DNA of 64,000 bases. It comes from Haliscomenobacteraceae bacterium. GTDB lineage: Bacteria > Bacteroidota > Bacteroidia > Chitinophagales > Saprospiraceae. The stretch covers positions 1 to 64,000 of the forward strand of contig CANMVX010000005.1 in NCBI GenBank assembly GCA_947501115.1, written 5' to 3'. The position numbers and the translations under genes are program-made. The notes under the pieces are model-generated. The model made no database searches. It was not told where the DNA came from and was given only the letters and a program-made list of their open reading frames with translations. Below, piece after piece: positions 3,579-23,825 of the stretch; within the stretch, counting starts at the first letter, position 1, and each line of letters opens with the position of its first letter.

Positions 3579-6500
3579 ATGAGTATTCAGTTTTTTCGCT
3601 TTCTTGTTATTTTTAGTTTCTCCTTTTCCATCTATACGCTAGTTGGTCAAAATGCCATACCTCTCAATGCTTCCTTTTCGTTTAGATCTTTAGGTCCAAC
3701 CCGGGGAGGTAGGGTTACTTCGGTAACCGGTCATGCCGATGATCCTAATATCTTCTTTTTAGGTTCAACAGGTGGTGGTGTTTGGAAATCGTCTGATTAT
3801 GGTCAAAATTGGTCGCCTGTCTCCGATAAGTATTTTAAAAGTCCTTCCATAGGTGCCATTAGACTGGCTCCTTCAAATTCGAAGATAATTTATTGTGGTA
3901 CAGGGTCCGATGGTATAAGAAGCAATGTTATTGCTGGAAAAGGCATGTACAAATCGGTTGACCAAGGGGTAACTTGGTCATTTATAGGTCTTGAAAATAC
4001 AGCCCATATTGGGGCAGTAGAAATTGATCCTTTAAATGCTGATATCGTCTATGTGGCTGCCATCGGTAATGCCTTTGCACCAAATGAGGATAGAGGTATC
4101 TTTAAAACAGAGGATGGGGGAGCTCACTGGAAGAAAATATTGTATTTAAATGATACTGTTGGGTTTAGTGATCTGGAATTACATCCAACCAATCAAAATA
4201 TTATTTATGCCGGTTCATGGCGTGTTGACAGGAAACCCTGGACTATTATTTCCGGTGCAAATGTGGGGGGCGTTTTTAGATCTCTTGACGGTGGAAATAC
4301 CTGGGAAAATATGAAAATTGGCCTTCCTGATGGACTCATTGGTAAAATTGATCTGGCTACTTCTCCTGCTTCTCCCGATAGAGTTTATGCCCTGATTGAA
4401 GCAGATAAAGGACAAGGTGGTGTCTATCTTTCAGAAGATAAAGGTCTTAATTGGAGTAAAATAAGCTCTTTTGCTCCTCTTTTAGATAGACCTTTCTATT
4501 ATTGTAATATCGATGTTCATCCGGTAAATCCAGATTGGATGATAGTTAATTCTACTTCCCTCTTGTCTTCTAAAGATCTGGGCAAATCCTGGAACACACT
4601 AAATACGCCTCATGGTGATAATCACGATATTTGGATTAATCCTAAACAACCTGATATCTGGATTCAAGCAAATGATGGTGGAGCCAATGTGACGAGAAAT
4701 GCAGGTCAAACCTGGTCTACTCAAGAGAATCAATCTACTGCCGAACTGTATCAGGTAGATATAGACGATCAATTTCCCTATTGGTTATATGCTGGTCAAC
4801 AGGATAATACAACCATTGCCTTACCTGTTTTACCTCCCTACAATGCTTTAAACAGAACAGATAATTTTTGGATGGAAGTAGGAGGGTGTGAAACTGGTCC
4901 TGTGGTTCCAATGCCAGGAAATCCTGACTTGGTTTATGCGAATTGTAAAGGTAGATTCGGTGTTTTTAATAAAAAAACAGGCCAGGAAATGCAATATTAT
5001 ATAGGTGCCTCAAATATTTATGGCCATGAACCTGATAAATTGACGTACCGCTTTCAACGGGTAACTCCTATAGAGGTTTCTCCGTTTGATCCTAAAACAG
5101 TTTATTACGGCTCGCAATATTTACATAAAACCATGGACGGTGGAAAATCCTGGCTTAGGATTTCCCCCGACCTAACCGCCAGAACACCTGAAACACAAAT
5201 TATATCAGGTGGCCCAATTACAAGGGATGTTACAGGGGAAGAATATTATAGTACTCTGTATGATATTGCGGTGTCGTCCATGGAGAAGGGGGTCATTTAT
5301 ACGGGCTCGAATGATGGGCCTTTATTCTTAACCAAAGATGAAGGCAAAAATTGGAAAAACATAACGCCAAATTCTCTTCTTCCAGGGGGTAGAATTGATT
5401 GTATTGAGCCTTCCGTCCATCAAAAGGGAAAGAGCTATTTTTCTGTTCTAAGGTATCAACTGGGAGACTGGAAACCCTATATATATAAGTCAGCTGATTA
5501 TGGAGAAACCTGGCAGTTATTAACTACAGGAAAAAACGGTATTCCCTCCGATTACCCAGTGAGAGTCATTCGTGAAGACCCGCAAGTACCTGGTATTTTG
5601 TACGCCGGTACTGAATATGGTCTATTCCTATCCCTAAATGATGGGCAGTCCTGGTTCCCCTTTCAGCTTAATCTTCCCATCACCCCAATCTCCGATGTGA
5701 AAATTAAAAATAACGACCTGGTGTTGTCAACCATGGGCAGAGGATTTTATGTTTTGGATAACATTCAGGCCATTAGAGCATGGAAAAATCTGGGAAATAT
5801 ATCTGAGTTTACTTTTCTAAAACCAAATCCGCAATATAGAATGCGCTATCAGCCTAGTTCTTCAGCTGATTTGACTAAATACCCTTCTCCCTCTGTGTTT
5901 TTTGAGTATTTTATTCCAAATCAAAAAGATACCGTCCTATCGATAAAAATAACAGATGATAAAGGAAGATTAGTCAGGGAATTTTCAAGTGCGGATGAAA
6001 AAACGCCTGAAGATCCATCTTTAAGTAAAGTGGATATGGCTACTGGATTCAGAACGAAGGGATTTAAAGCAGATCTAAAAATAGAAAATGGTATTCATCG
6101 ATTTTCCTGGGATATGAGATATACCGGATTTAGCGCAAATGGTAAAAACGGGGTCTTAGCCGCTCCGGGTACTTACCTGATTGAGTTTAATTATGGACAG
6201 AAGAAATATTCTCAATATTTTCAATTATTAATAGATCCCAGGTTACAAACGAACCAGATAACGACAGATATATTAAAACAACAGGTTGAATTGTCCTTAC
6301 AAATTCGCGATTTGGAGTGGCAAGCAAAAGATTTGGCTGCTCAATTAAAAGAATCGGTACAAATTGTAGATAAATCATCAAAGGCTTATTCTTTTTGTAC
6401 TGATATGGAAAAAGAGTTAGTTACTTCTAAATCAGTTGCTTACAGTCAACCAATGTTGATAGATCAGATTTCATATTTACGGGAAATGTTGAATACAGCA

Positions 6501-6614
6501 GATCAACTTCCAGGTAAAGATGCTTATGATAGATTTAAATCATTGAAAATGGAGGTTGATAATCTCCTAATGAAATGGAAGGATAAATCAAATATCCCCG
6601 GTTTCACCCATTAA
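3579..6614 (+). CDS. VPS10/sortilin-type BNR-repeat beta-propeller protein, secreted
   Basis: This 1011-residue protein has an N-terminal signal peptide (hydrophobic FLVIFSFSFSIYTLVG, then QNA). At least eleven Asp-box/BNR-type repeats follow through about residue 710, for example SSDYGQNW, SVDQGVTW, TEDGGAHW, SLDGGNTW, TMDGGKSW and SADYGETW. These build a ten-bladed-type propeller as in sortilin/VPS10 and related sialidase-like proteins. Residues about 750-900 look like a beta-sandwich ending in the GxYLIEF pattern, and the C-terminus is helical. Such proteins are often labelled glycosyl hydrolase, but no catalytic residues can be assigned, so enzymatic function is unproven. No T9SS sorting domain is evident. 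The ATG directly abuts the upstream terminator, and the 3' end overlaps the convergent CHAT gene by 27 bases. Confidence 0.85.
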   Translation: MSIQFFRFLVIFSFSFSIYTLVGQNAIPLNASFSFRSLGPTRGGRVTSVTGHADDPNIFFLGSTGGGVWKSSDYGQNWSPVSDKYFKSPSIGAIRLAPSNSKIIYCGTGSDGIRSNVIAGKGMYKSVDQGVTWSFIGLENTAHIGAVEIDPLNADIVYVAAIGNAFAPNEDRGIFKTEDGGAHWKKILYLNDTVGFSDLELHPTNQNIIYAGSWRVDRKPWTIISGANVGGVFRSLDGGNTWENMKIGLPDGLIGKIDLATSPASPDRVYALIEADKGQGGVYLSEDKGLNWSKISSFAPLLDRPFYYCNIDVHPVNPDWMIVNSTSLLSSKDLGKSWNTLNTPHGDNHDIWINPKQPDIWIQANDGGANVTRNAGQTWSTQENQSTAELYQVDIDDQFPYWLYAGQQDNTTIALPVLPPYNALNRTDNFWMEVGGCETGPVVPMPGNPDLVYANCKGRFGVFNKKTGQEMQYYIGASNIYGHEPDKLTYRFQRVTPIEVSPFDPKTVYYGSQYLHKTMDGGKSWLRISPDLTARTPETQIISGGPITRDVTGEEYYSTLYDIAVSSMEKGVIYTGSNDGPLFLTKDEGKNWKNITPNSLLPGGRIDCIEPSVHQKGKSYFSVLRYQLGDWKPYIYKSADYGETWQLLTTGKNGIPSDYPVRVIREDPQVPGILYAGTEYGLFLSLNDGQSWFPFQLNLPITPISDVKIKNNDLVLSTMGRGFYVLDNIQAIRAWKNLGNISEFTFLKPNPQYRMRYQPSSSADLTKYPSPSVFFEYFIPNQKDTVLSIKITDDKGRLVREFSSADEKTPEDPSLSKVDMATGFRTKGFKADLKIENGIHRFSWDMRYTGFSANGKNGVLAAPGTYLIEFNYGQKKYSQYFQLLIDPRLQTNQITTDILKQQVELSLQIRDLEWQAKDLAAQLKESVQIVDKSSKAYSFCTDMEKELVTSKSVAYSQPMLIDQISYLREMLNTADQLPGKDAYDRFKSLKMEVDNLLMKWKDKSNIPGFTH

Positions 6615-9338
6615 TATAAATGGTGCCCAAAAATAAGGCATTTTATTCATCATTTTCTTTTTGGTGAATTGAAGTGCCTTATTTTTGGTGTATCCTTTGG
6701 ATAAATAATAATAAAAGATTTCCATAAACTGAGCAGTACTTCTATCATCCACCTGCCACAAACTGGTAACTACAGATTTTGCGCCCGCATTTAAAAATGC
6801 CTGAGCTATACTATTCATTCCCTGAGTAGGTGTATATTGTCCAATGGAAGATTGACAAGCAGATAAAACGACTAAATTTGCCCTGATTTTAAGAGAAATT
6901 ATCTCATTGGCATAAAGAATCGAGGGTTCATTCTTGTGTATATTTTCAGAAAATATAAGCGCTCCTCCTTCTTCAGAATTTAAATTTGGATCACTATGTG
7001 TGGCTAAATGAATCCATTCGTAGGCCGGAGCTTCTTTTATGAAATTTTTTACACTCGCGTCATCTTTTTTAAATGCCACTGTTGGATAGTATTCACTTAT
7101 TTTTTTAATTTCAGTTTCATTATACTTCAAATTGGCAAAACCTCTGGAATCCTTTTGAAAATCGGGAGAAAATGCTAAAATTTTTCTTCTTAATTCTTTC
7201 TTAGTTTTATGAATTCCTGGAGATGTAATGAAATGATAGGAAATGGAATAATTTTCTATCAATCGTTTTTTAGGGTCTTTCGGATGCACGAGGATTTCAA
7301 AGGGCAATATTGAAAGTATCTGATCAGGGAAAAACATGATACTTTCTGTTTCTAAAGGAATGTCAGGTAATAGACTTGAACTTAATTTCTCAATCATAAC
7401 TCGATAAATATCCTTGTAATTTACCTTAGATTTTTCCCCGGCCGAAGGCATTTCTCTTATGGCGTTCCTAATGGATAGGATAGATTTATCTAATGGATTA
7501 GCCATTTTCCTAATGAAAACATCCTTTTTACCATTGATTTCCGACCAAATGATTATTTTATCCTGAGCAACCTTATACCTTATAAATAGGGAATTAGGTT
7601 TGCTTTTAGGGTATTTATTTTTATTATATGGGTAATACAATGAACTGAGCAGGGCTTTTTTATCATCTGATTTTGCAATGAAATAATAATCAATGAAGGA
7701 TGATTTGAGTTCATTAATTATTCTATCCTTTTTTAAGAATGGCTTATTTGATTGCATATAGTCAATCCACTGGTAATTGTCGTTTGCCTTTTTAGAGGCT
7801 ATTGAATCCTTTTTTTCTTTCAAAAAGCATTGAATTTCTAATAGCTCACATTTCAATTGATTTCGATAATAATGAATATCGTTTTTTATTGATAATTCAT
7901 TCAATAATTTATTTACTTGATTATTTATATACCTTGCTTTTCCAATGTCATCCAGGTTTACATAAAATGTCGCTATTTGTAATTTTATTTCTATTTGTTT
8001 TATGAGATTATCAAAATTTATCTGCGATTCAACTTCCAATATTTCTTTTAATTTGATTTTTGCCTCACTATACTTTTTATGATTTATTAAAATGGAGGTG
8101 TTAAGCAAAAGAGCTTCTAATTGTAGTAATTCAGATCCAGTTTTATTTACCTTTTTTAAATAAAACAATCCTTTAAAGGTATCCCTGAATGGTGGCTGCA
8201 TATATAAATTTGCAAGCGTCAAATACCTGTTACCACTTTCGCTAGAAGGAGTATTTAATATGGAATCATGAAGAAATTGAGATTGCTCATACGATTTTAT
8301 TGCTGATTCAATGTCAAACCTCATTACATGATATTGCCCAATTATTTCTTCTATATTTGAAAGAGCCAGCTGGTTAACAGGATTACTTTTAAGGTAATAT
8401 TTTTTTGCCTGTTCGAAATGGAAGTAAGCCTTTTCCAATTCATTTAGCTTTATATATGATGAAGAAATATTTGCATGTATTTCTCCCAACTCATTATTGG
8501 TGATATTTGGAATAATTTTTCTAATTTCAAGGGCTTTTTTATAATACAAAAGTGCCTTAGTTTCTTGATTGAGGTTACTATAGGCGTTACCAAGGTTATT
8601 AGCTAGTTGTGCTTTTCTTATTAAATTTTTATCAAATAAAGGATATGCTTTATTAAAATAGTGTATAGCCTTGTTAAAGTCTTTTAAAGAAATATAACAA
8701 TTGGCTTTTGCAAGATAAATATTTCCGACATTTTCATCTTCCTTGTCAAATGATAAGCTATTTAACAGAGTAATGGAGGTAATAAAATTTTTATCCAAAT
8801 AATAGTTGTTACTTAAGTTCAGCGTGTATTTTAAGTATTCTTTTTGATATATTTGGAAATCCTTAACCAAAGAAATAGCTTTTGTAAAATATGCTTCAGC
8901 AGTATTATATTCTGAATATCTTTGAAATAACAATCCTAAATTATTAATTGATTTTGATGTTTCTGGATGGTTTTTACCAAAATATAGAAATCTGTCCTGA
9001 TATGCCATTTTGTGATAAATTAAGGCTGAATCAGGTTGATTCATATCTTCAAAATAAAATCCCATTAAAGTGTTTGGTAAACCTACCATAGTAGAATCAA
9101 TGTCTGGTGGTGGAACAGGGAAGAATTTTTTAATTTTCAACAAATAATAATAGGCTGAATCCAGCTGATTATTATCATAGTATTTTTCAGCCAAAACTAC
9201 AAAGCCTGTATAATTTTGAGGAAGTTCTTCTTTATCCAATAATTTTTTTTCACAACTGCTTGAAAAGCAAATCAAATTCAAAAGAAGGAGGAGATTTACC
9301 CAGCTTGTTTTACCATAATAAAGAAAACATCTATTCAT
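6588..9338 (-). CDS. TPR-CHAT domain lipoprotein (caspase-like cysteine protease family)
   Basis: This 916-residue protein starts with a lipoprotein signal (LLLLLNLICFSSSC, Cys29), so it is probably anchored outside the cytoplasm. Residues about 50-450 are tetratricopeptide repeats, with recurring patterns such as ALIYHKMAYQ, AEAYFTKAISL, AIHYFNKAYPLF and ALLYYKKALEIR. Residues about 600-912 form a CHAT domain of the caspase/separase clan, with His781 in WIHLATHS and Cys828 in VVLSACQSS, both required for the catalytic dyad. The end, SLWQVDDRSTAQFMEIFY followed by FWAPFILMGETG, is classic for CHAT. It is transcribed away from the ECF-sigma operon. TPRs in such proteins usually sense or bind a partner; the trigger and substrate here are unknown. 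Family assignment is firm. Confidence 0.93.
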   Translation of the reverse strand: MNRCFLYYGKTSWVNLLLLLNLICFSSSCEKKLLDKEELPQNYTGFVVLAEKYYDNNQLDSAYYYLLKIKKFFPVPPPDIDSTMVGLPNTLMGFYFEDMNQPDSALIYHKMAYQDRFLYFGKNHPETSKSINNLGLLFQRYSEYNTAEAYFTKAISLVKDFQIYQKEYLKYTLNLSNNYYLDKNFITSITLLNSLSFDKEDENVGNIYLAKANCYISLKDFNKAIHYFNKAYPLFDKNLIRKAQLANNLGNAYSNLNQETKALLYYKKALEIRKIIPNITNNELGEIHANISSSYIKLNELEKAYFHFEQAKKYYLKSNPVNQLALSNIEEIIGQYHVMRFDIESAIKSYEQSQFLHDSILNTPSSESGNRYLTLANLYMQPPFRDTFKGLFYLKKVNKTGSELLQLEALLLNTSILINHKKYSEAKIKLKEILEVESQINFDNLIKQIEIKLQIATFYVNLDDIGKARYINNQVNKLLNELSIKNDIHYYRNQLKCELLEIQCFLKEKKDSIASKKANDNYQWIDYMQSNKPFLKKDRIINELKSSFIDYYFIAKSDDKKALLSSLYYPYNKNKYPKSKPNSLFIRYKVAQDKIIIWSEINGKKDVFIRKMANPLDKSILSIRNAIREMPSAGEKSKVNYKDIYRVMIEKLSSSLLPDIPLETESIMFFPDQILSILPFEILVHPKDPKKRLIENYSISYHFITSPGIHKTKKELRRKILAFSPDFQKDSRGFANLKYNETEIKKISEYYPTVAFKKDDASVKNFIKEAPAYEWIHLATHSDPNLNSEEGGALIFSENIHKNEPSILYANEIISLKIRANLVVLSACQSSIGQYTPTQGMNSIAQAFLNAGAKSVVTSLWQVDDRSTAQFMEIFYYYLSKGYTKNKALQFTKKKMMNKMPYFWAPFILMGETGDI

Positions 9339-9374
9339 GTTTAGCGATTCAACCCTATAAATTTAAAGGGATTA

Positions 9375-9388
9375 ACTATTTAAATAGT
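9375..9388. promoter_or_regulatory. 14-bp perfect palindrome between the divergent CHAT gene and sigma operon
   Basis: ACTATTTAAATAGT is a perfect 14-base palindrome in the 137-base gap between the two divergent transcripts, 37 bases upstream of the CHAT ATG. A symmetric site here could be a dimeric regulator operator acting on both sides. AT-rich sequence produces such palindromes by chance fairly often, so support is limited. Confidence 0.3.
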
Positions 9389-9423
9389 ATAAATGTATCA
9401 AAAAAAGATTAACAGAATTATTA

Positions 9424-9431
9424 TATTTTTG
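9424..9431 (+). promoter_or_regulatory. Putative -7 box (TATTTTTG) for the ECF sigma operon
   Basis: TATTTTTG matches the housekeeping TAnnTTTG consensus 44 bases upstream of the sigma-factor ATG at 9476. No clear -33 TTTG is seen. The first gene may therefore be made at a basal level by the housekeeping sigma factor, with possible autoregulation from an unrecognised second promoter. Confidence 0.4.
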
Positions 9432-9475
9432 TAATGTGAAACGGAACATTATTTGGTCTTAAAAACATATTAACT

Positions 9476-10075
9476 ATGAATAGTAGTTTAGAAACAATGG
9501 ATTTAGCCGCAGCCATACGTTCTGGCGGTTTAAAAAGAGAGCAAGCATTGTCAAGCCTGTATAACGTTACAGGATTGTTTTTTAAGATTAAGCAAATGGT
9601 TACTAATCATGGCGGAAATGAAGAAGATGCCAGGGATGTGTTTCACGAGGGTATTATAACGTTGGATCGAAAAATTCGACAGGATGAATATGAAGACCGT
9701 GGGACCATCGAAAGTTATCTTTTTGGTGTTTGCCGTTTCATTTGGTCAAACCAGCAAAGGAAAAATAAACGGGTGGAATTAAAAGATGATTTTACCCCTT
9801 ATGACCAAACTACGGGTGAAAATCCGTTGGATACCATGCTTAATAATGAAGGACAAAATATGGTTGCGACCTTATTCAGCCAGTTAGGCGAAAATTGCAG
9901 TAAAATATTATCCTTATGGAAACTTTCCTACTCCATGAATGAAATAGCGGAGGAAATGGGACTACCATCAGGTGATAATGCCAGAAAGCATAAATTTCGT
10001 TGTTATCAAAAATTACTTGGACTTATTGATAATTCGCCAGAATTGGCAACCAACTTAAAAAATTTAGGACAATGA
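9476..10075 (+). CDS. ECF-type RNA polymerase sigma factor
   Basis: This 199-residue protein has the two-domain plan of a sigma-70 family extracytoplasmic-function factor. Region 2 lies at about residues 25-95 (EEDARDVFHEGIITLDRKIR, then GTIESYLFGVCRFIWSNQQRK), and region 4 at about 130-185 with the helix-turn-helix MNEIAEEMGLPSGDNARKHKFRCYQKL. It heads an operon of eight genes, all on this strand with gaps of 1-28 bases or short overlaps. It overlaps the next gene by 4 bases (ATGA), the usual arrangement for a sigma factor and its membrane regulator. It probably directs transcription of this operon and perhaps the divergent CHAT gene; that is inferred from position. Confidence 0.88.
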   Translation: MNSSLETMDLAAAIRSGGLKREQALSSLYNVTGLFFKIKQMVTNHGGNEEDARDVFHEGIITLDRKIRQDEYEDRGTIESYLFGVCRFIWSNQQRKNKRVELKDDFTPYDQTTGENPLDTMLNNEGQNMVATLFSQLGENCSKILSLWKLSYSMNEIAEEMGLPSGDNARKHKFRCYQKLLGLIDNSPELATNLKNLGQ

Positions 10076-10845
10076 ATACTTCTGAGTACACAGAAAAACT
10101 GATGGCATTGGCCAATAAGGAATTATTTGGCGACGAAAAAATGCAACTTGAAAAGGAAATTCAAGAAAATCCTGTATTAGCTGAGGAATTTAAAAAACAC
10201 CTCCTTGCTCAAGAACTGCTGGAGGCTTTTATTTCCCAGGATTTGAAAAAGAAATTAAGTGCTTTTCCATTGCCTCAAGAAAAACCTGAATCTTCAGATG
10301 CGGTTATTAAGAAACTAAATCCTTCCAGGTACAAATGGTCTATTGCTGCTTCCATAGCCTTAATTTTAGGGGTATCCAGCTATTTATTTATAGGTAATGA
10401 ATTCTCATATCAGCATCTGGCTGATAATTATGTTCCACAAATGCAGGAAGTTCGTGGAACGAATATGGTTGCTGATGATATATTAGAGAAAGCTACTTCC
10501 TATATCTCAAATAACAAAAGCGAAATGGCCATACCATTATTAACCTCAATTACTTCAGACGATGATCGTTTTTTTATCGGGCAACTTCTGCTTGGAAATG
10601 CATATTACCAAACAGACAATTTTTCAGCTGCTTCCAATGCTTTTATTCAAAGCTCAAAGTCAGGAGATGAGGAGATTAAATACCAGGGGCAATATGGTTT
10701 TTTGTTATGTGAATTAAAGTTGAAGTCTTGGTCGGAAGAAAACCAACGTTTGTTAATAGAACTCTCTGAAAATGAATTTTTTATTTATAAGAATGAAGCA
10801 GAGGCTCTTTTACAAAAATTGAAGATCGCAAAATATTTCAATTAA
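10072..10845 (+). CDS. Membrane anti-sigma-like protein with periplasmic TPR-like region
   Basis: This 257-residue single-pass protein has a cytoplasmic N-terminal part, about residues 1-85, that is helical and includes KELFGDEKMQLEKEIQENP and EEFKKHLLAQELLEAF, as in Bacteroidota anti-sigma factors. A transmembrane segment follows at about 87-107 (WSIAASIALILGVSSYLFIG). The C-terminal part, about 110-257, carries TPR-like helices (AIPLLTSITSDDDRFFIGQLLLG, AYYQTDNFSAASNAFIQSSK). The start overlaps the sigma gene by 4 bases. The likely role is to hold the sigma factor at the membrane and release it in response to a periplasmic signal. No canonical zinc anti-sigma HxxxCxxC motif is present, so this rests on topology and gene order. 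Confidence 0.65.
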   Translation: MNTSEYTEKLMALANKELFGDEKMQLEKEIQENPVLAEEFKKHLLAQELLEAFISQDLKKKLSAFPLPQEKPESSDAVIKKLNPSRYKWSIAASIALILGVSSYLFIGNEFSYQHLADNYVPQMQEVRGTNMVADDILEKATSYISNNKSEMAIPLLTSITSDDDRFFIGQLLLGNAYYQTDNFSAASNAFIQSSKSGDEEIKYQGQYGFLLCELKLKSWSEENQRLLIELSENEFFIYKNEAEALLQKLKIAKYFN

Positions 10846-10864
10846 CTTTTAATCAGTAAACATT

Positions 10865-11467
10865 ATGAAAAAGGGAATCTCCTATATCATACCCATTTTT
10901 ATTTTCTTATTGACGAATCCTTTTGTTGGATTTACTCAGAAAAGGGAAAAAATGGACGGAGCTTTAAGGGCCTTTATTGAAACCCCTTTTATGCAAAAAT
11001 TTAAGGATTTACGATTGGAATCTGAAAATTTGGTGCTTACTTTCAAGGAAAACAAACAAAATTATTCTGCTGCAGATATCAATAGGGTAAAAACTGCTTA
11101 TCAAAAAACGGTAGATAAATTCAACGCCCAACTACTTGATATCAAAGCTGATTTCATGAATGAAAGAAAGCTTCAATATATTCAGGATTTTCCAGAGGAT
11201 TATACCAGTGGATTAACTTCTGACATCAATGATTTGACCTCGTTCTATCAAAGTAATCTTCAACTTACTATCCAGGATGTGACGGATGCCACCGTTGATG
11301 GAAATTCTTTACTTTCTCTCGTTGCAGAACTTGCCAAATTAGTACCTGGTATGGTGACTAGTATCTCAGAATTAAGATCATCAGTCAAAAAATTTGAAGA
11401 TACTTATTTGGAGGAAAAGTTAATTGGCCCCTATAAGTTTAAAACCTGGGAAGAAATCAATTATTAA
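10865..11467 (+). CDS. Exported helical protein of unknown family, paralogue 1
   Basis: This 200-residue protein has a signal peptide (MKKGISYIIPIFIFLLTNPFVGFTQ), so it is exported. The mature part is predicted to be mainly helical with a coiled-coil-like stretch (VKTAYQKTVDKFNAQLLDIKADF), and ends in FEDTYLEEKLIGPYKFKTWEEINY. It is clearly homologous to the next gene: both share an FKDL segment, the VKTxYxKTxDxFN block, the LxYIxxFPxDY block and the final PxKFxTWxEI. The pair arose by duplication. Being inside the sigma-protease operon suggests they serve the same module, for example as a cofactor or substrate of the proteases. I do not recognise the family. Confidence 0.8.
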   Translation: MKKGISYIIPIFIFLLTNPFVGFTQKREKMDGALRAFIETPFMQKFKDLRLESENLVLTFKENKQNYSAADINRVKTAYQKTVDKFNAQLLDIKADFMNERKLQYIQDFPEDYTSGLTSDINDLTSFYQSNLQLTIQDVTDATVDGNSLLSLVAELAKLVPGMVTSISELRSSVKKFEDTYLEEKLIGPYKFKTWEEINY

Positions 11468-11488
11468 TCAAGTTATTAATATAATATC

Positions 11489-12439
11489 ATGAAAAAGATC
11501 CTCTGTTTTCTCATTATTTTAATAAGCTACGTAAATCAATCATTTACAATAGCACAAGGAACAGCCACTTCCAATAAGCAACTGGATCCCGCTCTGAGGA
11601 AATTTGTTCAATCTGAAATTATGATTAAATTCAAAGATTTGAAAAGAGAAGCAGAGAATAGTGTCTCTTCTTTTAAATCGGAAATGAATAATTATAAACC
11701 CGATCAAATTCAAAAAGTTAAAACTGGCTACGATAAAACGGCTGACAGGTTTAATCAGGAGCTTGAAAATATGAAGTTGGATTTTGTCAATAAAAAGAAA
11801 CTCAAATACATTTTAGAATTTCCAAAGGATTATTCTCGTTCCTTAGAGCTGAATTTTAGGGAATTAGCTCAATATTATGCTGAAAACTTTCAACAACCTT
11901 TACAGGATGTAAGACAATCTAAAGAAGACGGCGGTATTGTTATTGCTCTTTTTATGGAGTTATTTAAATTAGTTCCAGAGGTCATCAACCATTTTAATGA
12001 AATGAAGGAAATGGCAGCCCGGTATGATGATGCCTATCTTGAAAAATGGTTGATTACCCCTTTTAAGTTTTTAACCTGGACAGAAATTCAGGCAGAAGCT
12101 GGTTATATTAATATGAATAATTCCAATAATTTATACAATAATGGGCTGAATACCAATCCATATCCTTATCCCGCTACACCAGATCCGAATACGACATACC
12201 CTCCTGTATCGAATCAACCTGCAACCTCTGTTGCTGATTCAATTAAAACAAATGCACAAAATTGGTGGGAAACAAATACGACCATGCCTGTTCCAACTAA
12301 TGTGGATGGCTCAGCACCCGTAAAAAATACAAATACAAAAACTACACCTGCTAAAACTAAAGCACCTGACCCTTTTGCACCTGCTCCAGTTCAGAAAGAT
12401 ACCACAAAGTTAAAACCTTCTTCTGTTAAGGTAAATTGA
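11489..12439 (+). CDS. Exported helical protein of unknown family, paralogue 2 with disordered tail
   Basis: This 316-residue protein has a signal peptide (MKKILCFLIILISYVNQSFTIAQG). Residues about 30-205 align with the preceding gene product, keeping FKDLK, VKTGYDKTADRFNQEL, LKYILEFPKDYS and PFKFLTWTEI. It then continues with about 110 low-complexity residues rich in Asn, Pro, Thr and Lys that the first copy lacks, probably a flexible extracytoplasmic tail. It lies 21 bases after paralogue 1 and 1 base before the papain-like protease gene, so co-translation is likely. The tail may bind another component; nothing in it identifies a partner. Function is unknown. Confidence 0.8.
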   Translation: MKKILCFLIILISYVNQSFTIAQGTATSNKQLDPALRKFVQSEIMIKFKDLKREAENSVSSFKSEMNNYKPDQIQKVKTGYDKTADRFNQELENMKLDFVNKKKLKYILEFPKDYSRSLELNFRELAQYYAENFQQPLQDVRQSKEDGGIVIALFMELFKLVPEVINHFNEMKEMAARYDDAYLEKWLITPFKFLTWTEIQAEAGYINMNNSNNLYNNGLNTNPYPYPATPDPNTTYPPVSNQPATSVADSIKTNAQNWWETNTTMPVPTNVDGSAPVKNTNTKTTPAKTKAPDPFAPAPVQKDTTKLKPSSVKVN

Positions 12440-12440
12440 T

Positions 12441-13979
12441 ATGATTATGCTAAGGTTTTATTTTTTCTCCACCCTTTGTTTATGCTTTTCTGCATTCCTA
12501 AAGGCTCAGGATTATCCTACAGGACTTGAATTTGAGGATGATCGCTATCAAAAGCAACCTTTGGTTTCTATGCAAAATGGGGGAAAATCAATCCCATCTT
12601 CCGTAGATTTGTCGGTTTATGCTCCTTTTCCCAGACATCAGGGAACTATTTTTAGTTGTGTCGGTTGGTCAGTGGGATACGGTGCCTTAACTATGGAAAG
12701 AGCTATTCAAAATGGATGGACAGATCGTGTAAAGATCACAAATGAATCCTCATCAGCTCTATTTTTATACAACCAAATTAAAATTGGAAATTGTTCCAGA
12801 GGTGCCAGGATTTCTGATGCATTGGTATTTTTGCAAGAAAAAGGAGATTGCCTCGCTAAATATTATGATAAAAATCTGGATGATTGTGAACAACCAACCA
12901 CACCAGAATTATTAAAAAATGCCAGTAATTTTAGAATTTCAGATTATGCTGCTCTTTTTGATGGTGAACTGGATAAAAATGACAAAATAAATAGAATTAA
13001 AAGAGCACTTGCTCAAAATAAACCCGTCGTTATCGGTCTTCGCATTAAGAATAATTTTTACAAATTAGAGGATGCAGCTTTCTGGCACCCTGATTTAGGT
13101 GATACCACTTATGCAGGTGGACATGCTATGGTCGTTGTAGGTTATGATGATAATTTGGCTTCTTTCCGCATTTTTAATAGCTGGGGACCAAAATGGGGAA
13201 AAAATGGTATGATATGGGTTAAATATGCTGAATTTGCAAAATATTGTAAATACGCCTATATCATTTATGTTGGACAAAATAAACCGATTCAAACCTCCGC
13301 AAGTCAGACCATAAAATCTTCGCCTGTAGTTGCTTCATCGAATGAAGCATTACCTGAAAGAAATTTAAATGAGTTACCCCTGAGAGATATATCTGGAAAA
13401 TTTAATTTTTTACGATTTACAGGTCAATTTAATGCCTATAGTGAACCTGTTTTTGAAGAGGCGAAGGTCCTGGGTGAAAAGAACATTTATACATTGTCCA
13501 ACAGATTATGGAAAGTTGGGGACAAATTTCAATTACAGGTAATTCCTTCCTTTTCAAATGGTTATATCTATGTGTTAAGTGTGGATCCAACTAATAAAAA
13601 AGAAGTTCATTGGCCAAAAAATGAAATGTTTAATGAAAAATTCAGGAATGAATATCAATCGGGGCTTTCCCCTTTTTCAGAGGGTGTAATTAAAATTCCA
13701 GATGCTCAAAGTGTTTTAAAATTGACACATCCTGGTTCAGAACATTTGATTATTTTATTTTCAGAAAAGAAGATTAATCCTCCTTTTATGAAATATTTGC
13801 TAGATAATCTTCAATATAGTGCATCTGAAAATTTATACCAATCCTTAACAGAAATATTAGGAGAACATCAAATTCCTACCTCCGATGTGCATTTTGATAA
13901 AGAATTGATGCAATTTAAGGCTATCACGAGAAATCCTGGGGCAATTATCCCGATGGTATTGAAAATTTCCGTAAATTAG
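12441..13979 (+). CDS. Exported papain-family (C1) cysteine protease with C-terminal DUF4384-like region
   Basis: This 512-residue protein has a signal peptide (FYFFSTLCLCFSAFLKAQD). The peptidase C1 domain spans about residues 45-280. The catalytic set is intact: Gln67 of the oxyanion hole and Cys73 in RHQGTIFSCVGWS, His228 in YAGGHAMVVVGYDD, and Asn246 in IFNSWGPKWGKNGMIWV. Residues about 310-470 resemble DUF4384, a domain often attached to proteases and kinases, with KVGDKFQLQVIPSFSNGYIYVLSVDP followed by HWPKNEMFN. The start follows the previous stop by one base; an ATG two codons later is an equally good start. It is followed after 28 bases by a caspase-like gene. The protease class is confident; the substrate is unknown. 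Confidence 0.9.
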   Translation: MIMLRFYFFSTLCLCFSAFLKAQDYPTGLEFEDDRYQKQPLVSMQNGGKSIPSSVDLSVYAPFPRHQGTIFSCVGWSVGYGALTMERAIQNGWTDRVKITNESSSALFLYNQIKIGNCSRGARISDALVFLQEKGDCLAKYYDKNLDDCEQPTTPELLKNASNFRISDYAALFDGELDKNDKINRIKRALAQNKPVVIGLRIKNNFYKLEDAAFWHPDLGDTTYAGGHAMVVVGYDDNLASFRIFNSWGPKWGKNGMIWVKYAEFAKYCKYAYIIYVGQNKPIQTSASQTIKSSPVVASSNEALPERNLNELPLRDISGKFNFLRFTGQFNAYSEPVFEEAKVLGEKNIYTLSNRLWKVGDKFQLQVIPSFSNGYIYVLSVDPTNKKEVHWPKNEMFNEKFRNEYQSGLSPFSEGVIKIPDAQSVLKLTHPGSEHLIILFSEKKINPPFMKYLLDNLQYSASENLYQSLTEILGEHQIPTSDVHFDKELMQFKAITRNPGAIIPMVLKISVN

Positions 13980-14007
13980 AAAATGGATACGCAAAATTAT
14001 ATTTGTC

Positions 14008-17001
14008 ATGAAGAATAGTTGTCTTTTCACTTTCTTACTTATTTTAAATACTTTATGTGCACAACCAGCTCTTATAAGCTGGGAAGTAAAAGATGGAAAT
14101 AAAGGGGAGGATTTTTTTACCAAATCCATTCAACTTTCAAATGGTAATATCGCAGTTATTGGGAACGTTTCATCTCCTGATGGATCAAAAAAATATGGCT
14201 CATTATCTCTTATTGATTTTAGTACGGGTAAAACTATTAAAAAAGTTACTTTCGGAAATCAAAATGATATTCAAATTCTTGATCTGATAGAATTACCTGA
14301 TGGTAATATTTTTATGGTGGGTTATTCCAATTTTAATAAAGTTATTTATCCCTGGCTGATAAAGTTAGATGCGTCAGGTAATAAAATACTGGAGAAGGTT
14401 TTAACATTGCCAGAGGGGGCTATTTTAACATCCATACATTCAGATTTTGAAGCTGGATTTTATTTGACTGCCAAAATTAATAATGATGATATTTTAATTA
14501 TTCATATCAATAAAGACGTCGATATTACTTGGAAAAAAGAGTTCTTTTTAGGATCCTATGGTGATTTGAAAAAAGTAACTATTGGCCTGAATGGTCATAT
14601 TTATCTTGGTGGAAATTCAAAAAAAGGGGATGGACAAAATTTAGGTGATGTTTGGATCACCTCGCTTGATAAAAATGGGAATGAATTATGGCACAAATTT
14701 TTTGGAGGCAAATTATGGGAAGAATTAAATGATCTTATCACTCTTCAAGATGGGTCTATTCTTTTTTGTGGTGAAACCAATTCCTTAGGAAATGGGAAAC
14801 AAGATTTTTGGCTTGTAAAGTTAAGTCATACTGGTTTTTTACAATGGGAAAGAACCTATGGTGGGAGAGAAGCTGATGTTGCCAGAACCATTTTACCCCT
14901 TTTTAATGGCAATATTTGGTTGGCAGGGTCCAGCTTGTCCTTATTGAATAAAAAAGGGGCTACAAAATTTGCAGCAAGAATCATTGAAATTGATGGCAGT
15001 GGAAACCTACAATGGGAAGCAGATTATGGTGGTGACAACAATGATGACATTAATTATTTAAGTCAAATTCATGACGGAAGTGTTCTGTTTTCAGGTTGGA
15101 CTGAGTCAAATACCCAAAGTCTCAAAGATGCCTGGATGGTTCGTTTTCCGGCTCCTGAAATGAACAGATTATTGGCAAAAGGTAATTTAAGGATTAATGA
15201 ATCCAAAATTTGGTTAAATACGCCCGATGGACTTTTAAAGCCTAATAATCAATCTTATATATCTTTGCAACTCAATAATCAGGAAGCGAATCAAATTGAA
15301 AATATTAGGGTGGATATCAATATGATAGATGGACAAAAGGGCATTAAGGTTAATCAATCTGTATTTGTTCAACCTTTACTGCCAAATACCAATAAGCAAA
15401 TTAACATCCCAATTACCTCAGATGTTAATATTGAAACAAAGGATAATTTACTTGAAATAAAGGTCTATTCTGGTTCAGACTTAATAAAGACGGTTACGGG
15501 GGCAGTAAAATCTTTGAATCCAAAGGCTGCAACACTTCGTTTTGTAAATACGAATACCGAAAAAGAAGGAGTGGATGAATTCAGCCCGCAAACGCTCTTT
15601 GTTGACATTCAAAATGATGGGGACCTGCCAGCTACTGAGGTACAAATTAATTTTGTTCTTCCAAAAGGAATCTTAGCTTTAACTTCTACTGATGTTAAAC
15701 TGGGCACAATTAATTCCAAGTCTTTAAAAAAAGCATCTTTTAGATTTCAAAAAACAGTTCAATTTGAAGGGAATGAAGTAGCCATTCAAATGAATGCACT
15801 TGATAATCAACTTACCAGAATTTCTAAAACAGTAACTTCCCGATTTGATGTCATTACAGCTAGTCAATCCTCAAATATTATAGTTTTTAATAATCCTAAA
15901 GCCTCTCAAAAAAGGACAGATTGGAGTAATCCAACGTTTAAACTTGAAGCTATGTTTGGAACCAGTAGTAATAACCTTAAACTAGGTGATGCCGTAGTTA
16001 AAATTAATGGAGTCATTCCTGAACGTTCTAAAATGGATGAGGAAAAGCTAACTCCTCCTGCTTCAAACAGTCAAGGAAATGCCATGAATTTTTATGATTA
16101 TGAAAATGTAATCTCTCTGATGGAAGGGGAAAATAGAGTGCTGATTGAATTAGTTACGCCCAATGGCGTCATTCAATCAAATGAAATGATTATTAACTAT
16201 AAACCTAAACAGCCTAATCTTCATGTTTTAAGTATTGGTATTCCTCACAGAGATTTAAAATTTACTACCTTAGATGCTGAAAATTTTGCTAATGCCTTTC
16301 AAAATCAAACGGGTATGGATAAGGTATTTAATAAAATTTATGTTGAAAAAAAGAATACAAAGGAAAATACGCGTAATCTGGATATTCGTGCTGCCATGGA
16401 AGATCTTAAAAGGAGGTATAATACTGATTTGATTGGTGGAAAAATTAATAGAGAGGATGTTTTGATTCTTTTTATTTCGTCACATGGAAAGACAGATGAT
16501 AATAACGATTTTAAAATATTAGCATCAGATTATGATACTTATGGTGATGTTTCAAATATTGATTATAAAAGGGATATTCTGGATATTTTAAATCAGATAG
16601 ATTGTAAAAAATTTGTTTTTATTGATGCTTGTCATAGTGGTTCCGCTCAGGGGGCACGATTGGTTAACCAGGCCAGATTTGCACTGGAAGAAATAAACGC
16701 GGCATATCCTGGACTTAATGTGTTGACCAGCAGTCAGGTGGACGAATTGTCTTACGAGGACGATTCCTGGGGAAATGGCGCTTTTACAAAAGCCATTCTG
16801 GAAGCATTTTCCGGAAAAACTTTAGCGAGTGGACTAAATCCTGATCCAGATGGGGATAAAATCATTCGTTTTGGTGAGTTATATGATTTTCTTCAGAAAA
16901 GAGTTCCTGCCATGGTTATGGAAAAAAAGAAAAGTAAGCAAATGCCTGCAAAAATGTCAAAAGGATTGGGAGATAATATTCCGTTATACCTACTTTATTA
17001 A
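14008..17001 (+). CDS. Exported propeller-caspase (peptidase C14) protein
   Basis: This 997-residue protein has a signal peptide (SCLFTFLLILNTLCAQ). Residues about 25-380 contain repeated propeller-like blades with the pattern LWxKxFGGxxxExxxDxxxLxDGxxxxxG, for example GNELWHKFFGGKLWEELNDL and GFLQWERTYGGREADVA. Residues about 390-730 are beta-rich linker domains. Residues about 740-990 are a caspase-like domain with LHVLSIGIPHRDLKFTTLDAE, His826 in LFISSHGKTDD and Cys875 in VFIDACHSGSA, so the dyad is present. It is preceded by the C1 protease and followed 10 bases later by the giant T9SS repeat protein. Export of a caspase domain is unusual compared with cytoplasmic eukaryotic caspases but known in this phylum. 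Cleavage specificity cannot be read from the sequence. Confidence 0.9.
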   Translation: MKNSCLFTFLLILNTLCAQPALISWEVKDGNKGEDFFTKSIQLSNGNIAVIGNVSSPDGSKKYGSLSLIDFSTGKTIKKVTFGNQNDIQILDLIELPDGNIFMVGYSNFNKVIYPWLIKLDASGNKILEKVLTLPEGAILTSIHSDFEAGFYLTAKINNDDILIIHINKDVDITWKKEFFLGSYGDLKKVTIGLNGHIYLGGNSKKGDGQNLGDVWITSLDKNGNELWHKFFGGKLWEELNDLITLQDGSILFCGETNSLGNGKQDFWLVKLSHTGFLQWERTYGGREADVARTILPLFNGNIWLAGSSLSLLNKKGATKFAARIIEIDGSGNLQWEADYGGDNNDDINYLSQIHDGSVLFSGWTESNTQSLKDAWMVRFPAPEMNRLLAKGNLRINESKIWLNTPDGLLKPNNQSYISLQLNNQEANQIENIRVDINMIDGQKGIKVNQSVFVQPLLPNTNKQINIPITSDVNIETKDNLLEIKVYSGSDLIKTVTGAVKSLNPKAATLRFVNTNTEKEGVDEFSPQTLFVDIQNDGDLPATEVQINFVLPKGILALTSTDVKLGTINSKSLKKASFRFQKTVQFEGNEVAIQMNALDNQLTRISKTVTSRFDVITASQSSNIIVFNNPKASQKRTDWSNPTFKLEAMFGTSSNNLKLGDAVVKINGVIPERSKMDEEKLTPPASNSQGNAMNFYDYENVISLMEGENRVLIELVTPNGVIQSNEMIINYKPKQPNLHVLSIGIPHRDLKFTTLDAENFANAFQNQTGMDKVFNKIYVEKKNTKENTRNLDIRAAMEDLKRRYNTDLIGGKINREDVLILFISSHGKTDDNNDFKILASDYDTYGDVSNIDYKRDILDILNQIDCKKFVFIDACHSGSAQGARLVNQARFALEEINAAYPGLNVLTSSQVDELSYEDDSWGNGAFTKAILEAFSGKTLASGLNPDPDGDKIIRFGELYDFLQKRVPAMVMEKKKSKQMPAKMSKGLGDNIPLYLLY

Positions 17002-17010
17002 TTTTGGAAA

Positions 17011-20000
17011 ATGAGAGCCTTTCTACTTCTAATTTCTCTTATCATCTCAGGATGGAGTTTTGAAATAAAAGCTCAGACAACCTCATGTTTTTCTGCCACA
17101 TACGTTGCTAATCCAACTTGCCCAGGGTTAAAAACGGGTAATATTTCTTTAAATATTACTGGAGGCTCTGGTTCTTATAATATTTTTTTTAATGGAAGTA
17201 CCATAGCAACTACACAAACCACCTTTTCAAATTTGTCAGTGGGAGCTTATTCCATTAGAATTATAGATACGAAGAACATAAACTGCACCCAAACAATTTC
17301 TGCAATCATAAACAATTATCTCGTTCCAACAGTCACAATAAATGGAAATAGTTCCTTTTGTTCAGGTCAAAATATTTCATTAACAGCTAATTTGGATAAA
17401 TTTTATTCAACCTCTTATTCTTATACCTGGAGCAATGGTAATAAAGGTTCTACCATAAATATTGTTCCCACTTCAGCTGGTTCCTATTCAGTGTCGGTAA
17501 CTGATGCCGCAGGTTGTATTGTTACTTCTTCAAAATCAATTACTCAGGTTTCTGGTCCAAGCGTTAGTTTTTCTGGTAGCTATACAAATTGTTCAGGTAA
17601 ACAGGTGACGCTTGTCCCAATAATTAATGGAGGAACAGGCCCTTATACTTATTCATGGGATGGCGTTATTTCATCTACCGCAACTAAGACTGTTAATCCA
17701 ACATCACCTCAAACTTATTGTCTTACTGTAAGAGATGCCAATAATTGCTCGGCACAAGCCTGTGTAGTCGTAAATCAGAGGTTTTTAAACGTTAACCTAC
17801 CCACAGGCATATCAAAATGTCAGGGAGAAAGTTATACGATAGTACCAACGGTTTCCAATTTTTCCGGGGCCTTAAGTTATCAGTGGAGCAATGGTGCTAC
17901 AAGTTCAACCAATCCTGTGACCATTAATGCTACACAGTCTTATGTTGTGACTGTCTCAGATGCAACGGGTTGTATTGGTACAGCATCTACCTCTATAGGA
18001 ATGAATGCTAATCCTTCGGTTAATTTGCCAGCTACTTTAGATGTGTGTCAATTTAATGCAGTGACGCTTGATACAAAATTAAGTACCACATCAAATACCT
18101 TCGCATGGAGTTCGGGAAGCACCGCTTCAGCAATTACCTTAATACCAACTACCTCAACGAATATTTCAGTAATTATTACTAATGCCAATAACTGTAAAGC
18201 AGCAGCTGCCGTTAGTATCAATGTAAGATCTAATCCATCAGTTTCCTTGCCTACCTCCCAAATTACTTGTGCAAATACACCATTTACTTTAACGCCTGCT
18301 GTTAGTGGTGGAACGCCTGGATATACGTATTTGTGGAGTAATGGTTCAACAAATGCTACGTTAACCACCTCTTTATCCGTATCTGGTGCCATTTCCCTCA
18401 GAGTGACAGATCAAAATGGGTGTGCTGCAAATTTGACGACAGCCATAACTGTTCGAAATAGTCCGGCAGTGAGTATTTCCGGAACAACCCTAATTTGTCC
18501 CGGACAAACTATTTCTTTAAATACCAATACAACAGGGGGAACCAGTCCTTATACTTACCAATGGAATACAAATTCCAATAATCAAAATATATCAGTTTCT
18601 CCAACATCCGTAACTACTTACACTGTTACGGTAACTGACAATCTGGGTTGCAGCAATTCTTCAAGTATATCTATTTCTCCAACCAAATCCTTAAACGTTA
18701 ACCTACCTACAGGCATATCAAAATGTCAGGGAGAAAGTTATACGATAGTACCATCGGTTTCCAATTTTTCCGGGGCCTTAAGTTATCAGTGGAGCAATGG
18801 TTCTACAAGTTCAACCAATCCTGTGACCATTAATGCTACACAGTCTTATGCTGTGACTGTCTCAGATGCAACGGGTTGTATTGGTACAGCATCTACCTCT
18901 ATAGGAATGAATGCAAATCCTTCGGTTAATTTGCCAGCTACTTTAGATGTGTGTCAATTTAATGCGGTGACGCTTGAAACAAAATTAAGTACCACATCAA
19001 ATACCTTCGCATGGAGTACGGGAAGCACAGCTACAGCTATTACCTTAACACCAACTACCTCAATGAACATTTCAGTAATTGTTACTAATGCCAATAACTG
19101 TAAAGCAGCGGCTGCCGTTAATATCAATGTGAGATCTAATCCATCAGTTTCCTTGCCTACCTCCCAAATTACTTGTGCAAATACACCATTTACTTTAACG
19201 CCTGCTGTTAGTGGTGGAACGCCTGGATATACGTATTTGTGGAGTAATGGTTCAACAAATGCTACTTTAACCACCTCTTTATCCGTATCTGGTGCCATTT
19301 CCCTCAGAGTGACAGATCAAAATGGGTGTGCTGCAACAGCTATATCGGGTATAACACTGATTCCTAATCCAACCATTTCTATATCAGGTATTTTTGAAAT
19401 TTGTCCAGGGCAATCAACCACCTTAACAGCACTGCCTTCAGGCGGAACCTTACCCTATTCATATAAATGGAATACGGGTGACACCAGCAAATTAATTACA
19501 ACAATGCCTTTAATACCAACTACTTATAAAATAACATTGACAGATAAAAATAATTGCATTGGCGAAGGATCAATTCTGGTATCAACAACAAAAAATATAT
19601 CAGTCACAATACCTTCCGATTCAAATATTTGTCTGGGTGATTCCATTACTTTAAAACCCATCATTGGAACGAATGGAGGAGATTTAAACTATTTATGGAA
19701 CAATGGAACCAGTGCAGAATCATTATTAGTGAAGCCATTAAGTAAATCTAAATATTCCTTACTCGTAAAAGATAAACTTGGATGTTCAGGATATGCTGAA
19801 ACAACGGTGAATGTAAATACGCCACCCAAAGCAACCTTACCTGCACTCATTAATGGTTGTTTGGCAGATAGCCTAAATATAAATTTAAGGGATATTTCAG
19901 GGTCAGGTCCATTTAATTTCAAATGGTCAAATGGAAAAACAACTGCGGAATCGACCTATTTTGTTGATTCAGATAAAATTATTTTTACTACAATTACAGA

Positions 20001-22839: not shown

Positions 22840-22844
22840 TTATT

Positions 22845-23825
22845 ATGATAAAGGAATTATCAAATAAGTATGTTCGCATACTTTTCATCTTTTTTTTATT
22901 CTTGGCATCCGAAGCTGATGGTCAACAACTTACGCCATTCACTTTATATAGAGATCATTGGAACCTTATAAATCCTGCCGCAGTGTCAAATAACAATATC
23001 CTGGCTGAATATCCTTTTACAGTTTCAGCAAGTTCCCGTTTTCAATATCTGGGCCTTGGATTAAATGTAAAAGATGCTCCAAATACGAATGTTCTAAACG
23101 CTGAATGGGTAAATAATAATTTAAACAGCACTTTTGGATTACAGCTAGTTTCTGATAAAATAGGTTTATTAGGAAATAATGGGGCTTATCTACAATATGC
23201 CTATAAACTTAGGTTAAGTCGAAGAGAAGAGAAATTTTTAAGTTTTGGCATTTCTGCCGGAGCGATTAATTATTATTCAAAAATAAATGGCGCTGATTTT
23301 CCTGTAGCAGAACCTGATATTATTCCAACATCTACTTATTTACCTGATCTGAATATTGGCATTTTTTACAGAAATGAGGATAAATATTATTTAGGTCTTT
23401 CTTTTCCCCAATTTTTGAATCTTACCGCTAAATATAAATCACTGGACTCAAGTAAGGAATTATTTACCATTAAGAGATTCAGACATATATATGCTGTTGG
23501 GGGAATATATATACCTTTTGATTTTTTTGGCTTAGGTGATGAAACAGCCATATTGGATTTATCCACATGGGTTCGTTATTTGCCAGGTCAACTACCTGTA
23601 ATAGACGGAAATGTAAGGTATCAGCACAATCAGACTTTTTGGTTTGGTGCCGGTGTTTCCTCTAACGCAACTTCTCATTTTGAGGTTGGATTTCTTGCTG
23701 GAAAAACGATTGGATTGTTCGATAATCAGATTAAAATTTCCATCGCTTATGATGTACCCTTTGGTAAGTCAATATATCAATTAGGAAGTTCTATAGAGGC
23801 TTCTATAGCCTATAGCTGGTATTAA
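22845..23825 (+). CDS. PorP/SprF family type IX secretion system membrane protein
   Basis: This 326-residue predicted outer-membrane beta-barrel has a signal peptide (ILFIFFLFLASEADGQQ) followed by the PorP/SprF hallmark QLTPFTLYRDHWNLINPAAVSNN. Many amphipathic strands follow, for example FSVSASSRFQYLGL-type segments and FRHIYAVGGIYIPF. Family members sit in the outer membrane and help a cognate large T9SS substrate with a type-B C-terminus reach or stay on the cell surface. The gene directly follows such a substrate, 5 bases after its stop, so it is probably its dedicated partner. It is the last gene of the ECF-sigma operon and its stop codon lies in a hairpin. Confidence 0.9.
   Translation: MIKELSNKYVRILFIFFLFLASEADGQQLTPFTLYRDHWNLINPAAVSNNNILAEYPFTVSASSRFQYLGLGLNVKDAPNTNVLNAEWVNNNLNSTFGLQLVSDKIGLLGNNGAYLQYAYKLRLSRREEKFLSFGISAGAINYYSKINGADFPVAEPDIIPTSTYLPDLNIGIFYRNEDKYYLGLSFPQFLNLTAKYKSLDSSKELFTIKRFRHIYAVGGIYIPFDFFGLGDETAILDLSTWVRYLPGQLPVIDGNVRYQHNQTFWFGAGVSSNATSHFEVGFLAGKTIGLFDNQIKISIAYDVPFGKSIYQLGSSIEASIAYSWY

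Follow-up and report, generated by a model that had tools for sequence, protein, structure and literature searches.

Gene content of the locus

The 64,000-nucleotide stretch of DNA analyzed here (the window) comprises positions 1 to 64,000 of the forward strand of contig CANMVX010000005.1 from a Haliscomenobacteraceae bacterium of the Saprospiraceae (Bacteroidota; GenBank assembly GCA_947501115.1), and it carries a locus in which the gene for a CHAT-domain protein with tetratricopeptide repeats (TPRs) lies divergent from a run of genes headed by an extracytoplasmic function (ECF) sigma factor. The run consists of eight plus-strand genes at 9476-23825 (~14.4 kb), with intergenic gaps of -4 to 28 bp, encoding in order the ECF sigma factor, a TPR membrane protein, two helical proteins, a papain-like C1 peptidase, a caspase-like C14 peptidase, an SprB-like adhesin and a PorP/SprF protein, and by its layout it reads as one sigma-led operon. 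The CHAT and sigma genes are separated by 137 bp. A sequence-only reading of this DNA had reported three cysteine-protease families, CHAT, C1 and C14, in the locus, and all three were found where it had placed them, with every catalytic residue correctly named: His781/Cys828 for CHAT, Gln67/Cys73/His228/Asn246 for C1 and His826/Cys875 for C14. CHAT and C14 both belong to clan CD, which has the caspase-like fold, and the three families therefore represent two folds. A role of the locus in defense was considered and rejected: the CHAT protein, the sigma factor, the helical proteins, C1 and C14 had no PADLOC match at E 0.01, and two weak SIR2 matches on the TPR membrane protein (E 0.006-0.007) were disregarded.

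The CHAT gene (6588..9338, minus strand) encodes a 916-aa protein with TPRs, an export-like N terminus and a CHAT domain matching Pfam PF12770 with an E value of 4.8e-49 (167.8 bits against a cut-off of 24), and it is the only CHAT match in the window's assembly, which is 96.7% complete. Its His/Cys dyad is invariant in 21/21 proteins from the module-seeded loci (residue counts, here and for C1 and C14 below, include the window and its near copies, with identical sequences counted once) and is present in 43 of the 44 proteins compared from other CHAT loci, the exception being a cut sequence.

The sigma factor (9476..10075, plus strand; 199 aa) scores 48.4 bits against TIGR02937, above the cut-off of 42.9, and a profile of nine of its relatives matches the structures of sigma-H, sigma-E and SigW; Pfam Sigma70_r2 by itself falls under its cut-off (18.1 vs 24). 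The next gene (10072..10845, plus strand) overlaps the sigma gene by 4 bp and encodes a single-pass membrane protein with a hydrophobic segment at approximately residues 90-108, found in a similar place in most relatives. Its C terminus is TPR-like and confidently predicted in an AlphaFold2 model, for which the 50 Foldseek matches listed were mostly TPR-type chains (best E 0.034). We infer that this protein is an anti-sigma factor from the position of its gene, its passage through the membrane and its conservation.

Association of CHAT with the sigma factor and putative anti-sigma factor

The association between CHAT and this gene pair was compared from three starting points. The first was the clade of module sigma factors, which contains 17 loci (22 tree rows, support 93/86; the window genus contributes one locus, and L056/L123 and L073/L115 are pairs of near copies). 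Sigma has CHAT as its divergent neighbor in 10 of these loci, and in four more the stretch contains a CHAT gene that diverges from C14 instead; the remaining three show no CHAT, two of them being on contigs of 4.5 and 8.3 kb. A small open reading frame (ORF) lies between the divergent CHAT and sigma genes in L061 and L123. Second, we examined 40 other CHAT loci, drawn from the best-scoring CHAT matches in family genomes, and found within 3 kb a sigma gene in 16, an anti-sigma homolog in 15 and both in 13. Twenty control stretches of 13 kb each contained one sigma gene, no anti-sigma and no CHAT, although these were hand-picked, mostly from the same contigs away from the seeded CHAT, and their zero for CHAT is not unbiased; an estimate of CHAT density was therefore added, based on 355 first-look CHAT candidates in 135.2 Mb from 20 of the genomes with anti-sigma-seeded loci (below), namely those that the CHAT scan of the family had covered too.

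The third starting point was the putative anti-sigma factor. Matches were ordered by anti-sigma score with CHAT disregarded, and the first 80 starting at base 5000 or later were taken after removal of stretches already seen and four congeners; five loci among them that had been seen earlier (L190-L194) were excluded from the new-locus counts. A same-strand sigma gene was found within 150 bp of the anti-sigma homolog in 69/75 new loci. Of the 53 new loci that had 5 kb on both sides, 31 had a CHAT gene no more than 5 kb away, with all four relative orientations represented, compared with 1.9 expected from CHAT density. Across 13 loci, CHAT-domain distances also correlate with those of sigma (r 0.795) and anti-sigma (r 0.814; permutation p 2e-4). 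These comparisons identify the CHAT gene on the opposite strand as a conserved associate rather than a chance neighbor. Among the new CHAT-positive loci with the sigma/anti-sigma pair, 37/39 have neither C1 nor C14 in the fetched stretch. CHAT thus goes with the sigma/anti-sigma pair, and this suggests that it helps to control the operon instead of acting as one stage in a cascade of operon products.

A promoter-like motif upstream of the sigma gene

The 137-bp divergent region contains on the plus strand, at 9442..9468, the sigma-promoter-like motif CGGAACATT-N9-TAAAAACAT. The same two-box motif, of the approximate form GGGnACATT-N8/9-TAAAnACAC and first spotted by eye, lies upstream of module sigma genes and is convincing in 13/15 sigma upstream regions, mostly 27-34 bp ahead of the annotated start, the two training regions that lack a convincing copy being those of L073 and L113 (the motif and gene-neighbor counts exclude near copies of window-genus loci as well as duplicate contigs). 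The core of the window's copy, 9443-9467, is the sole exact match in the window's assembly. We infer that the motif is a promoter recognized by this sigma factor, of the kind expected for autoregulation, and C1 and C14 are, as had been claimed, consecutive genes behind the same sigma factor. The motif ends 7 bp before the sigma start codon, and if it is the promoter the sigma transcript may have almost no leader.

The idea of a larger regulon elsewhere in the window genome was rejected. Matches with up to three mismatches numbered 105 on the forward and 99 on the reverse strand, vs 82 and 93 for a reversed control, and those beyond the operon's exact match are indistinguishable from chance in this genome. 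One site with a single mismatch was listed (contig C39); it falls inside the final portion of one ORF, immediately ahead of a second, and no connection is evident.

A matrix trained on the module sigma upstream regions was then scored against first genes in the related loci at a threshold of 14, which was picked after the scores had been seen. The motif was found ahead of 4/26 helical and 3/15 C14 first genes, vs 7/411 unlabeled first genes (Fisher 6.5e-5), and ahead of 0/24 C1-only and 0/49 CHAT first genes, the latter pooled from module and other loci. Three of the seven unlabeled matches are genes just 3′ of a helical gene (L108, L110 and L128); the two that were scanned, at L128 8947-10842 and L108 4583-6478, encode polyglycine-hydrolase-like proteins with a beta-lactamase domain. 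At L117, a type VI Hcp-domain protein (13091-14029) encoded between C1 and C14 is preceded by a weak copy of the motif.

Exported products of the operon

The sequence-only reading had all three proteases apparently exported. Signal peptides were assessed with a home-made rule, tried also at later Met starts, which was positive for 36/37 C1, 41/43 helical, 25/29 C14 and 13/19 CHAT proteins, and for 0/31 sigma and 2/34 anti-sigma proteins (window-genus near copies were partly left out of this count, with L096, L099 and L100 kept). The rule is lax, passing 69/168 unlabeled neighboring ORFs, and it is therefore informative through the difference from the sigma and anti-sigma proteins. Export of C1, C14 and the two helical proteins is well supported by their predicted signal peptides. 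The window's CHAT protein fails the rule, its hydrophobic stretch at approximately residues 14-27 lying behind a long n-region, and its putative lipobox is SSSC, a poor match; its N terminus is export-like. Because the Cys of this sequence is kept in 4/4 window-genus CHAT proteins compared, a lipid anchor is possible. Twelve distant CHAT relatives begin with ordinary signal-peptide-like segments, and export of CHAT is moderately supported by these comparisons.

The two exported helical proteins, encoded at 10865..11467 (plus strand; 200 aa) and 11489..12439 (plus strand; 316 aa), are paralogs with ~40% identity. An AlphaFold2 model of the second comprises a helical bundle and a disordered tail, with a predicted local distance difference test score (pLDDT) of at least 90 at 131/316 residues and below 50 in the tail. 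It has no clear relative in the PDB, and Foldseek gave no match at E up to 0.001. We considered whether the helical proteins might be α-pore-forming toxins and rejected this, as ClyA, AhlC and a Bacillus hemolysin component matched at Z 5.6-7.3, under the helical-bundle background. The window shares the tandem pair with its close relatives (L082 and L095-L100), other annotated loci having a single copy per site; L059 has two separate copies.

The C1 peptidase (12441..13979, plus strand; 512 aa) matches PF00112 (E 1.9e-9; 38.4 bits against a cut-off of 20.7), and its Gln, Cys, His and Asn are invariant in 39/39 proteins. Its best PDB match is 3ois (E 5.4e-14, residues 51-264). This structure, which we take to be the cysteine protease xylellain, is the closest solved relative of the window's C1 domain by sequence, but the window protein has in addition a C-terminal region with a weak DUF4384-like match. 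Straight after the signal peptide, at approximately residues 24-40, a Gly-Leu...acidic...Tyr segment is kept in 37/37 relatives according to a lenient pattern that was made after looking. The C14 peptidase (14008..17001, plus strand; 997 aa) has its PF00656 domain at residues 749-985 (E 1.1e-10; 42.0 bits against a cut-off of 21.4), with a His/Cys dyad that is invariant in 35/35 proteins, and an N-terminal repeat region that matches CylK repeats (profile E ~3e-29).

The last two genes encode a giant adhesin (17011..22839, plus strand) and its PorP/SprF-like outer-membrane partner (22845..23825, plus strand; PF11751 E 6.1e-31, with TIGR03519 above its cut-off). The adhesin has SprB repeats and a C-terminal type IX secretion signal of the CHU_C type, both above the Pfam cut-offs; the C-terminal domain scores 33.9 for CHU_C (cut-off 27) and falls below the cut-off of TIGR04131 (21.5 vs 35). 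In these features and in the adjacent PorP/SprF gene the pair resembles the SprB/SprF gliding adhesin and anchor, but here it is preceded by genes for a sigma factor and two proteases. Elsewhere in the window, a peptidase C39 ATP-binding cassette exporter at 34528-36717 represents a further cysteine-peptidase family.

Distribution and rearrangement in relatives

Within 120 genomes of the family, homologs of the helical protein were found in 15, C1 relatives in 58 and CHAT in 112; at least two CHAT copies are present in 92 genomes and at least 10 in 31, with up to 18 matches scored per genome. The C14 query matched 101/120 genomes, but many of these matches cover the N-terminal repeat region alone, and the figure is therefore no measure of the caspase. 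When public genomes were scanned with the helical protein, 34 loci were recovered, in records titled Saprospiraceae, Saprospirales, Chitinophagales, Lewinella, Haliscomenobacter, Flavilitoribacter or Bacteroidota only.

The near relatives L096 and L099 retain the order CHAT to C14 to adhesin. Distant relatives are reshuffled, with CHAT divergent from sigma or from C14, or with the sigma set, C1-C14 and the helical gene on different contigs. CHAT, C1 and C14 also occur together in single fetched stretches from other lineages; with just one CHAT match in the window's assembly, their co-location is more than chance. Among 29 C14 loci, 18 have a C1 gene on the C14 strand no more than two genes away, and 16 have a PorP or adhesin gene following C14 on that strand at the same maximum distance (10 identified by profile and six as large genes matching the window adhesin). 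Loci L083-L086 have sigma, anti-sigma, C1 and C14 without CHAT in the fetched stretch, and L109, L112, L118, L120 and L128 have helical, C1 and C14 genes without CHAT or sigma. Two further proteases are encoded between the helical and C1 genes of L056 (6977-8365 and 9642-12323) and may be under the same sigma factor; one is a subtilase, and the other is trypsin-like and ends in a type IX sorting tail.

Proposed function of the CHAT protein

The genes and their active sites, the operon layout, the conserved motif and the conserved association between CHAT and the sigma/anti-sigma pair are shown directly. As the best explanation of these, we tentatively propose that the locus acts as an ECF-sigma switch that amplifies itself and drives an exported surface program, with CHAT as the regulatory protease that cuts the anti-sigma factor. 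The sigma factor (9476-10075) would be held at the inner membrane by the adjoining TPR membrane protein (10072-10845). The exported TPR-CHAT protein would sense an envelope signal through its TPR array and cut the periplasmic part of the anti-sigma factor, releasing sigma, which would then transcribe its own operon from the motif at 9442-9468. The output would be the two secreted helical proteins, the papain-like and caspase-like proteases, and the type IX adhesin with its PorP/SprF partner.

The cleavage step is proposed by analogy with Craspase. The TPR-CHAT protein Csx29 of Craspase is reported to cleave Csx30, an inhibitor of an ECF-like sigma factor, and this cleavage is proposed to relieve inhibition of CASP-sigma (PMC10028731). 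The locus is like that system in tying a TPR-CHAT protease genetically to an ECF-type sigma factor and a candidate inhibitor, and unlike it in that the window's CHAT looks exported and the candidate inhibitor is a TPR protein that crosses the membrane once. An RNA-guided effector was not seen next to the window's CHAT, although no search for Cas7-11, a CRISPR array or Csx30 was made; the window genes that were scanned matched families other than Cas7-11 and Csx30, or none. We favor the reading of CHAT as an envelope protease that would inactivate the anti-sigma factor, a periplasmic counterpart of Craspase/CASP-sigma. A membrane regulator adjoining an ECF sigma factor, with an envelope protease as the proposed trigger, also recalls RseA-DegS and RsiW (PMC10028731), but the proposed protease is here a caspase-fold CHAT and the regulator has a TPR-like periplasmic part. 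PorXY-SigP likewise involves an ECF sigma factor controlling type IX-related genes in Bacteroidota; SigP is reported to control the secretion machinery, whereas the window's sigma factor leads one adhesin/PorP pair together with proteases (PMC7712824).

Several observations weigh against the proposed switch. No anti-sigma domain was recognized in the membrane protein, the match to PRK13920 ("putative anti-sigmaE") having an E value of 0.068. CHAT is missing within 5 kb in 22 of the 53 anti-sigma-seeded loci, and because of these and of L083-L086 it appears that the switch can work without an adjacent CHAT; moreover, the seeding profile was built from 12 module members that are mostly CHAT-linked, and its best matches may lean that way. 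The correlation of distances can reflect shared descent alone. The best CHAT tree, from which two short rows were left out, places the window's CHAT on a long branch and scatters the 21 module CHATs, which are clustered (nine label changes against a shuffled mean of 17.9) but do not form one clade; a single clade for the 17 CHATs of the module sigma clade is not rejected (approximately unbiased test, p-AU 0.25). CHAT could also be an output of the operon program.

The linker that joins the membrane segment of the anti-sigma factor to its TPR domain has a Tyr/Phe...Pro...basic-Gly/Ser pattern in many members, and an Arg-Gly/Ser site tied to an adjacent CHAT looked convincing in the first loci, although there too exceptions occurred: the CHAT-linked L088 has no Arg, and several CHAT-linked anti-sigma homologs, such as L140, L148, L149, L157, L158, L163 and L164, have another linker type. 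The prediction was fixed before the new loci were seen, and there it failed: Arg followed by Gly, Ser, Asn, Arg or Gln was not enriched beside CHAT in the 60 evaluable new loci (27 with and 12 without Arg beside CHAT, 13 and 8 in loci lacking CHAT; p 0.38, or p 0.15 for the strict form), CHAT-less loci with less than 5 kb on one side having been left out. CHAT cleavage of the anti-sigma factor therefore stays a proposal by analogy, and a trans-acting or unrelated protease acting instead of CHAT is possible.

It is quite possible that CHAT is instead one more exported hydrolase in a nutrient-scavenging or predatory arsenal, with sigma controlled otherwise and proximity reflecting co-function. 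Relatives do add hydrolases to the locus, namely the subtilase and trypsin-like protein of L056 and the polyglycine-hydrolase-like proteins beside the helical gene in L128 and L108, and CHAT is so abundant in the family (112/120 genomes) that many CHATs need not serve a sigma factor. Against this reading, CHAT persists beside sigma and anti-sigma even where neither C1 nor C14 is near (37/39 new CHAT-positive loci). The lack of the motif ahead of all 49 CHAT first genes also speaks against it, although a motif trained on module sigma genes says little about other loci.

Action of C1 and C14 on the type IX adhesin of the same operon, in its maturation or in its shedding from the PorP/SprF anchor, is compatible with the sigma switch and, taken by itself, seems unlikely. 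It would fit the position of a PorP or adhesin gene soon after C14 in 16/29 loci and the view that type B cargo is held at the surface by PorP-like proteins (PMC9143113). Against it, the Pfam and NCBIfam scans found no type IX sorting domain on C1 or C14, which may therefore stay periplasmic while the adhesin is outside.

The earlier suggestion of proteolytic activation among the three proteases, or of the helical proteins by them, appears improbable and is left unsupported by the comparison: the active sites are all intact and invariant, C1 and C14 lie close together in 18/29 C14 loci, and the acidic segment of C1 could be a pro-segment, which leaves some room for activation, but the three proteases are apart in many fetched stretches, CHAT tracks the sigma pair, and no cleavage site or precursor was identified in the sequences compared.

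The components of the locus belong to known families, and what is new is the association of an exported CHAT with sigma and anti-sigma and with an output of proteases and a type IX adhesin. No description of the CHAT-sigma-anti-sigma association was found in the literature searched, which had subscription papers and preprints outside its scope. In this literature, ECF sigma, anti-sigma and CHAT domain together led to the Craspase work only; no paper joins Saprospiraceae with the CHAT domain, or CHAT with sigma factor, caspase and Bacteroidetes; and HetF with PatU3 and CHAT gave nothing. TPR-CHAT with tetratricopeptide and protease led to Craspase papers, reviews of genome editing or CRISPR, and a review of programmed cell death.

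A broader and rather doubtful generalization is that exported TPR-CHATs in the Saprospiraceae include a widespread, multi-copy class of dedicated anti-sigma proteases, of which CASP-sigma would represent a cytoplasmic cousin and the present locus one such switch. The window genome and its congener G048 have one CHAT match each, and masking of a knock-out by paralogs is therefore less likely in this genus. If the proposal is true, the locus represents a caspase-fold, envelope-facing route to sigma activation, and if CHAT acts on the neighboring anti-sigma factor, one mechanism would explain many sigma switches and would give Craspase a wider evolutionary setting.

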